A DNA stretch of 64,000 nucleotides from an uncultured Methanobrevibacter sp. (GTDB taxonomy: Archaea; Methanobacteriota; Methanobacteria; Methanobacteriales; Methanobacteriaceae): positions 1 to 64,000 of the forward strand of contig NZ_CACZTX010000001.1 of assembly GCF_902784195.1 (NCBI RefSeq), given 5' to 3'. The notes beneath the pieces were generated by a model, which was not told the DNA's origin, ran no database searches, and saw only the letters and a list, made by a program, of their open reading frames with translations. Position 1 is the first letter of the stretch; every line of letters starts with the position of its first letter. Shown here one piece after another: positions 51,494 through 52,184 of this stretch. The position numbers were made by a program, and so were the translations under genes.

Positions 51494-51553
51494 TTTAAAT
51501 CAATATTATAACAAGATTGTTATAATATTATAATGATTTTAAATCAATATTAT
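51494..51553. promoter_or_regulatory. Operator-like inverted and direct repeats
   Basis: AATATTATAACA (51502-51513) and TGTTATAATATT (51518-51529) are perfect 12-bp inverted arms around AGAT. TTTAAATCAATATTAT also occurs at 51494-51509 and 51538-51553 as a direct repeat. A TATA-like TTTATATT follows at about 51577, so these look like regulator sites for the small gene at 51662. Confidence 0.55.
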
Positions 51554-51661
51554 GGTTAAATAAGAATTTTTAAGGATTTATATTAAAAATAAACTATAAA
51601 TAAAAGTAATTATATATTTTTATACCTAAATGTAAACTCTTTAAGTCCAGGAGGTGATATT

Positions 51662-51859
51662 ATGCATTTTTGCTTTATTGCCATGAATTTGGTTCAGGAT
51701 ATTCTTGAAGAAAATTCTATCTGGCAAATCCTAAAAAAGGAGGGTCATTATGTCTGTCCGATCAAAGATTTGGTTGGCACTGGTTGTGTATCTCATTTAT
51801 TTGTGGTGCATGGCCTTTATAATCATAATGATTTTATACAAATTGTTATGAGGTCATAA
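51662..51859 (+). CDS. Small protein of unknown function, perfect ribosome site
   Basis: A 65-residue frame starting at ATG 51662 behind AGGAGGTGAT (51649-51658), a very strong Shine-Dalgarno sequence. The product starts M-H-F-C-F-I-A-M-N-L-V and contains several cysteines and histidines. I know no family. A second small frame with its own ribosome site lies inside it in the +1 frame (51750-51851). The start is well supported; it is possible that the true product ends earlier and the inner frame is the conserved gene. The promoter carries operator-like repeats. Confidence 0.45.
   Translation: MHFCFIAMNLVQDILEENSIWQILKKEGHYVCPIKDLVGTGCVSHLFVVHGLYNHNDFIQIVMRS
51750..51851 (+). CDS. Nested 33-residue single-helix membrane peptide
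   Basis: ATG 51750 lies behind AAGGAGGG (51737-51744), in the +1 frame within the 65-residue frame. The product starts M-S-V-R-S-K-I-W-L-A-L-V-V-Y and is one membrane helix of about 25 residues with a basic N-terminus, ending K-L-L. The clean topology and good ribosome site make it a credible gene. It would be translated from the same transcript as the outer frame. Function unknown. Confidence 0.45.
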   Translation: MSVRSKIWLALVVYLIYLWCMAFIIIMILYKLL

Positions 51860-51884
51860 TGCCCTTTAAATTGTAGGAAAAAAC

Positions 51885-51966
51885 TTTATTGCAAGATTTT
51901 GTTTTTAAACAACTCCCTAAGTTGTTCTTGAGTTTCCTTTGGCTTGTAAAGTTCACATCCTGCAAT
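51885..51966 (-). ncRNA. Possible small structured RNA with 10-bp closing stem
   Basis: Read on the minus strand, ATTGCAGGAT (about 51964-51955) pairs with ATCTTGCAAT (about 51896-51887) with one G-U pair, and AACAACT/AGTTGTT forms an inner hairpin. A T-run follows. TATA-like TATAAAT lies about 40 bases upstream near 52008. The closing-stem sequence recurs at 52092-52114. A coding reading of 25 codons is also open here, so this is tentative. Confidence 0.3.
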
Positions 51967-52024
51967 TTATAAACATATTAAAAAAGTTTAAATATTATTT
52001 CATTTATACTCATTAGTAGAGTTT

Positions 52025-52184
52025 AAAAAGTTTATTCATTAAACTTTTTGATCCAAACCTTTTTTATGGATTTACAATATCTATCTTAGGGATTGCAGGA
52101 TTTTATCCTGCAATGTAGATATTGGGAATGATTTGAATCTTAATCCATTAGGATTAGATTCATAAATCATTTTTTTAAAAAATA
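52025..52184 (+). ncRNA. Series of strong hairpins, candidate structured RNA
   Basis: Hairpin 1 is AAAAAGTTTA/TAAACTTTTT (52025-52049). Hairpin 2 has an inner perfect stem ATTGCAGGAT/ATCCTGCAAT (52092-52114) inside an outer stem CAATATCTA/TAGATATTG (52075-52124). Hairpin 3 pairs AATGATTT-GAATC-TAATCC with GGATTA-GATTC-AAATCATT (about 52127-52170) and ends in T7. Three stacked stems followed by a T-run in a 350-base non-coding gap suggest a small RNA or a complex convergent terminator. Confidence 0.45.

Follow-up and report, generated by a model that had tools for sequence, protein, structure and literature searches.

A putative type I toxin-antitoxin-like cassette in the archaeon Methanobrevibacter

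An intergenic gap in the window (the whole stretch of DNA analysed, 64,000 nucleotides from an uncultured Methanobrevibacter sp.) probably carries an archaeal type I toxin-antitoxin-like module. Judging from the sequence record, it comprises a small membrane peptide (ORF2) whose frame is under purifying selection, two structured RNAs (RNA A and RNA B), covarying complementarity between the peptide mRNA and RNA B, a second covarying pairing which closes the peptide Shine-Dalgarno sequence (the SD lock), and a dependence of the peptide on RNA B. We consider it likely that the locus belongs to a family of type I modules native to Archaea, characterized by a tandem antitoxin RNA on the same strand, complementarity to the toxin ribosome site kept by rapid locus-by-locus coevolution and mutually orthogonal pairs within each genome; in at least one species the family would also be linked to a regulon built on 19-bp operators in tandem.

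The protein genes of the window include those for 3-dehydroquinate synthase II, a DeoC/LacD-family aldolase, a nitroreductase and a class-III aminotransferase. The cassette occupies an 800-bp gap between the end of the dehydroquinate synthase II gene (51409) and the start of the nitroreductase gene (52218, opposite strand), in a region with a G+C content of 15%. The following features were assigned:

51494..51553, strand not assigned: repeat boxes AATATTAT, a putative operator array, with boxes at 51502, 51524 and 51546 (22-bp spacing)
51595..51602, + strand: TATA box 1, TATAAATA, of the peptide mRNA, conserved in the alignment
51649..51658, + strand: SD1, AGGAGGTGAT, the conserved ribosome-binding site of the leader
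51662..51859, + strand: ORF1, a 65-codon frame whose reading frame is not conserved
51677..51728, + strand: leader hairpin ATTGCC...GGCAAA, directly 5' of the antisense target, from the fold and a motif recurring in both genera
51721..51748, + strand: antisense target in the mRNA, CTGGCAAATCCTAAAAAAGGAGGGTCAT, lying over SD2 and pairing with 52048-52077
51739..51744, + strand: SD2 (GGAGGG), the ribosome site of ORF2
51750..51851, + strand: ORF2, MSVRSKIWLALVVYLIYLWCMAFIIIMILYKLL, a 33-residue single-helix membrane peptide and candidate toxin, in a conserved frame
51850..51867, + strand: 3' lock, GAGGTCATAATGCCCTTT with AGGGTCATTATGTC, sequence immediately 3' of the stop codon and complementary to SD2 and to the start of ORF2
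51865..51971, + strand: RNA A, a 3'UTR stem-loop with a conserved 13-bp stem (AAATTGYAGGA/TCCTRCAATTT), from compensatory pair types and the fold
51987..51994, + strand: TATA box 2, TTTAAATA, 26 nt 5' of the RNA B model start
52012..52178, + strand: RNA B, a structured antisense RNA and candidate antitoxin, folding into three hairpins and ending in a T run
approximately 52024-52050, 52075-52124 and 52125-52173, + strand: the RNA B hairpins
52048..52077, + strand: antisense segment of RNA B, TTGATCCAAACCTTTTTTATGGATTTACAA, between hairpins 1 and 2

Homologous loci were found in Methanobrevibacter records, M. olleyae among them. DNA and protein searches located the cassette at the same site, beside the dehydroquinate synthase gene, in genomes G009, G012, G015 and G016, and also in G005 and G006; other copies were found in G018, G011 (three), G008 and G007, and the window genome has a paralog (G000:C1:216524-217259). 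About 26 further genomes, of a second genus (g5), were added by a peptide profile. In the alignment, variable stretches separate a conserved promoter, SD1, SD2, peptide, 3' stem, TATA box 2 and structured RNA. Presence of the cassette is patchy, with several copies per genome. Tandem arrays occur at L109 (genome G129) and L113 (G128); the former packs three copies of RNA B and two identical ORFs for the peptide into 2 kb, and of these RNAs one is predicted to pair strongly with both mRNAs and another only weakly. No relative was found among the viral contigs and plasmids searched, and there is thus no sign that the module is phage- or plasmid-borne.

The first-pass annotation had described a 65-codon frame with a ribosome site and, nested in its +1 frame, a 33-codon ORF with a ribosome site of its own, and all of these were present. 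A search of relatives for the peptide, proposed there as a check, found the ORF2 frame conserved in two genera and the ORF1 frame not conserved. Homologues of the peptide came from 36 genomes in two GTDB genera, a count which leaves out one weak match with an internal stop. They are 30-33 residues long with a hydropathy maximum of mostly 2-3, within the size (<60 residues) and one-helix limits of type I toxins, and share few conserved core residues (K6, W8 and Y14). The pN/pS ratio of the peptide frame was 0.41 in the first genus and 0.59 in the second, against 0.96 and 1.57 in the other frames; by this measure the peptide frame is coding and under purifying selection. The ATG of ORF2 is changed to ATT or ATA at three loci (G000b, G015b and G018), and precisely these have ORF1 fused to it in frame, so that the peptide stays translatable; loci with ORF1 out of register have an ATG or GTG of the peptide's own. 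No match above cut-off was obtained for the peptide in Pfam, PADLOC or NCBIfam.

Folding of the mRNA paired GGGTCATTATG, which contains SD2 and the start codon, with CATAATGCCC, directly 3' of the stop codon. The mean energy of this SD lock over 45 loci was -18.0 kcal/mol, compared with -9.3, -11.7 and -6.8 for sequence windows further 3', and the minimum among 20,000 permutations of partners was -17.1. Being conserved and covarying, the lock appears to be the inhibitory structure expected of a type I toxin mRNA.

The RNA B gene, 150 nt downstream, was absent from the first reading. A covariance model built from 25 copies matched in 57 of the 139 genomes of the family, all within two genera, and 82 copies were aligned. 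Hairpin 2 is paired in 99% of cells, with a double change from A-U to G-C in 37 sequences at one pair and two-sided change in seven of the eight pairs of its inner stem; covariation was found in P1 and P2. The fold of the window copy has a z-score of -6.8. No match to the Rfam covariance models came close to a gathering score. A TATA-like box (consensus TTTATATA) stands 5' of 46/47 complete and 31/35 other copies, at position -26 in 48 of the 77 copies with a box. It also precedes stand-alone RNA B copies without a peptide, consistent with the antitoxin RNA having a promoter of its own. RNA B would accordingly be a separate transcript, on the same strand as the peptide mRNA and at a near-constant 150-180 nt from the peptide stop. 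T runs separating RNA B from the 3' stem of the mRNA are rare (5/47 loci), so that read-through transcripts, with pairing in cis, are possible.

Every mRNA-RNA B helix was scanned at 47 loci, with the mRNA numbered from the conserved K[FI]W codons. One cell stood out, joining mRNA positions of about -45 to -30 to RNA B positions of about +45 to +60, with 42/47 cognate pairs against a mean of 8.4 after shuffling. The mean gapped duplex energy was -24.1 kcal/mol for cognate and -10.8 kcal/mol for non-cognate partners (z = -22.4; none of 20,000 permutations came near). All 45 complete testable loci which keep the leader showed complementarity, with a median of 24 pairs and a range of -18.9 to -34.3 kcal/mol, in the mRNA just 5' of and around the peptide Shine-Dalgarno sequence; the two failing loci have no testable leader, L051 being cut by the contig end and L116 having lost it. 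In the latter (G093:C87) SD1 and the antisense target are gone and RNA B is kept, and its mRNA may be leaderless. In the window the duplex of CTGGCAAATCCTAAAAAAGGAGGGTCAT and TTGATCCAAACCTTTTTTATGGATTTACAA has an energy of -23.4 kcal/mol and covers GGAGGG.

Positions -39 to -31 of the mRNA are paired in 42-45 of the 45 loci by A-U, U-A, C-G, G-C and G-U types. Compensation was two-sided in 23 of 25 comparisons of similar loci, and among nine dissimilar clusters each paired best with its own RNA B (9/9). Paralogs of the window genome have differing pairing segments. On these grounds RNA B is complementary to the peptide mRNA in the manner of a type I antitoxin, and, with the Shine-Dalgarno sequence covered by the duplex, its pairing may block translation of the peptide or destabilize the mRNA. 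A seed between AGAGUUU at the 5' end of RNA B and AAACUCU in the mRNA leader was rejected (cognate -10.2, non-cognate -10.2), the segment being explained by hairpin 1 of RNA B; failure of this 7-nt seed indicates that the cognate test can say no. Pairing of RNA A with hairpin 2 of RNA B (TCCTGCAAT/ATTGCAGGA) was also set aside, as it is confined to part of one genus and is probably incidental.

Every peptide match free of internal stops and with room on its contig was followed by RNA B roughly 260-300 nt downstream. The reverse did not hold: about 26 RNA B copies have neither peptide nor target upstream, and in G006 the copy beside the dehydroquinate synthase gene has lost the peptide and retains RNA B. 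Such a pattern, RNA B without peptide and no peptide without RNA B, would be expected of a dangerous peptide paired with a protective RNA. Copies with neither peptide nor target include G012:C10:19235-19349, G004:C28:69960-70074 and G006:C46:12574-12689.

The promoter had been termed operator-rich from a 16-base direct repeat and perfect 12-bp inverted arms. The repeat, TTTAAATCAATATTAT, was located at 51494 and 51538; the arms are indeed perfect, with a length of 13 rather than 12 bp (51502-51514 and 51517-51529). When the region was shuffled (first-order Markov, n=5000), arms of at least 12 bp appeared in 1.2% of cases, the corresponding figures being 0.9% for a direct repeat of 16 bp and 0 for the two together, and the repeats therefore exceed chance. 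The exact palindrome is common only to the window locus and its nearest homologue, G009a. The tandem-repeat arrangement, unlike the palindrome, is conserved in relatives and precedes many copies, so the operator-rich description is supported in part, by the tandem repeats. These repeats presumably bind a regulator. Based on archaeal TATA spacing, the peptide mRNA would start at about 51621-51626.

In G011 as many as ten copies of a 19-bp repeat (CAATTTYAC core) stand in tandem at the peptide promoters, and G008 has a shorter 19-bp array in the same place. The tandem pair pattern occurs 113 times in G011 against 3 times for the reversed control. Arrays with this core stand at several dozen places in G011 (e.g. 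L164, L175, L165 and L167), and among the genes that follow arrays are those for an XPD-like helicase (the next gene encoding a YgjP-type peptidase), a prepilin peptidase, a Cas4-like nuclease and a TctA-like membrane protein. From the sequences, a large regulon with array operators is possible in G011, and since the 19-bp arrays are shared the peptide may belong to a regulon. Just 3' of the arrays at L165, L167 and L168 (G011) there are three related ORFs of 39-40 codons, ending ...YSLE(I/L)(L/M)KIFI(M/L)(V/L)(L/M), possibly a second multi-copy small-peptide family.

Other explanations of the locus were considered. Overlapping coding, as the first-pass annotation had it, would require a functional 65-residue product in addition to the peptide. 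SD1 is strongly conserved and ORF1 has 64-65 codons at several loci; this similarity of length, however, mostly reflects the overlap with ORF2. Among relatives ORF1 may run into the peptide in frame, lie out of frame with it, or end before or at it; its register relative to ORF2 varies (0, +1, +2), its length varies between 31 and 68 codons, and many loci of the second genus have no ATG, GTG or TTG start for it. Its body is the antisense target and varies freely. With register, start and end varying across loci, ORF1 was rejected as a conserved second gene and the overlapping-coding claim is not supported; we regard two functional genes here as very improbable. ORF1 is probably a leader, standby or coupling sequence. 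That the repeats and ORFs are chance products of AT-rich DNA without function, as a 15% G+C region might invite, has a negligible probability given the cross-genus conservation, covariation and selection, and was ruled out by the cognate-pairing test. A single read-through RNA comprising both mRNA and RNA B, with the linker pairing in cis as a riboswitch-like lock, is rather improbable: the scarcity of T runs between the parts, the common strand and the near-constant spacing would suit it, but the TATA box lies at a fixed -26 from RNA B even where no mRNA is upstream, and RNA B stands alone in many genomes.

The main rival is that the peptide is not toxic and binds and tunes a membrane complex, in the way of the small proteins MtrR and MtrI with the Mtr complex of Methanosarcina, with RNA B setting its dose only. 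Two reports describe small regulatory proteins of methanogen membrane complexes (PMC13370731, PMC12774963), and a harmless membrane peptide under antisense control would have the same look in sequence. However, the patchy distribution, the orthogonal antisense segments of the multiple copies, the copies of RNA B alone and the double lock are more in keeping with a dangerous peptide than with a subunit-like regulator, and the core residues which might form a partner site are few. We consider this rival unlikely.

The preferred reading is thus a toxin-antitoxin-like module, and its predicted mode of action is as follows. A regulated promoter would give a short mRNA, whose functional product would be the 30-33 residue single-helix membrane peptide. 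Translation would be closed by two locks, the sequence after the stop codon pairing with the Shine-Dalgarno sequence and start codon of the peptide, and RNA B, transcribed separately from a TATA box a short way downstream and in the same orientation, pairing through the linker between hairpins 1 and 2 with about 18-27 nt of mRNA that end over the same Shine-Dalgarno sequence. If RNA B failed to keep pace with the mRNA, or if the mRNA were remodelled, synthesis of the peptide would follow, and its site of action would be the cytoplasmic membrane, which it would probably depolarise. On this reading the peptide would be toxic and its induction regulated. The conserved peptide, the covarying antisense RNA and the covarying SD lock strongly support the earlier proposal of a small, regulated and possibly toxin-like membrane peptide.

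In the literature searched, type I toxin-antitoxin systems were described from bacteria alone, and none from Archaea was found. If the reading is true, the type I class would be extended to a second domain and Archaea would offer a clear case of RNA-controlled translation. Covariation alone led to the module, in methanogens of the rumen and gut, and this offers a way of searching that does not rely on known toxins. The sequence record also predicts the RNA that silences each mRNA and the paralogs between which there must be no cross-talk. In the rumen, methane production is dominated by Methanobrevibacter, and a self-encoded membrane-active peptide would therefore be of applied interest.

Among bacterial systems, tisB has an untranslated upstream frame, tisA. 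In the tisB/istR-1 system of Escherichia coli a 29-residue membrane peptide goes together with an inhibitory structure in the mRNA, a separate antisense RNA encoded nearby and regulation of the toxin promoter (PMC8309996). The present cassette resembles it in its membrane peptide, upstream frame, inhibitory mRNA structure, nearby antisense RNA and putatively regulated promoter. It differs in that IstR-1 binds a distant standby site whereas RNA B covers the Shine-Dalgarno sequence of the peptide itself, in the position of RNA B downstream on the same strand, in having no sequence relation and in its archaeal host. Of the marks of that family, a homologous TisB and a LexA-controlled promoter, neither was found: Pfam and NCBIfam gave no match, and the promoter has tandem repeats.

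In hok/sok and AapA1-type systems the toxin ribosome site pairs over a long range with the 3' part of the mRNA, an antisense RNA is also present, and the leader frame of hok, mok, is an overlapping one. The antitoxin RNA genes of these systems lie across the toxin gene on the opposite strand, and their products are fully complementary to it. Long-range pairing between the Shine-Dalgarno sequence and the 3' end, together with an antisense RNA, is common to these and the present cassette, and mok is comparable to ORF1; in contrast, the RNA B gene is non-overlapping and on the same strand, and its complementary segment of 18-27 nt is kept by coevolution. No match to Hok-type families was found in Pfam or NCBIfam, and with RNA B on the same strand the cassette falls outside hok/sok.

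Modules of Ldr/Ibs type are duplicated on chromosomes and encode small hydrophobic peptides. Duplicated chromosomal modules are also described for zorO/orzO (PMC3919570). Both resemble the present cassette in occurring as several near-identical copies in a genome, in encoding small hydrophobic peptides and in RNA pairing that is specific to each locus; they differ in their bacterial hosts, and no homology was detected. According to PMC12390103 (2025), the type I systems known before msoT1/msoA1 of Microcystis all came from Proteobacteria, Firmicutes and Tenericutes; msoT1/msoA1 is likewise a recent extension of type I to a new phylum and differs in being cyanobacterial. The cassette thus appears to work like tisB/istR and hok while being a member of neither family.
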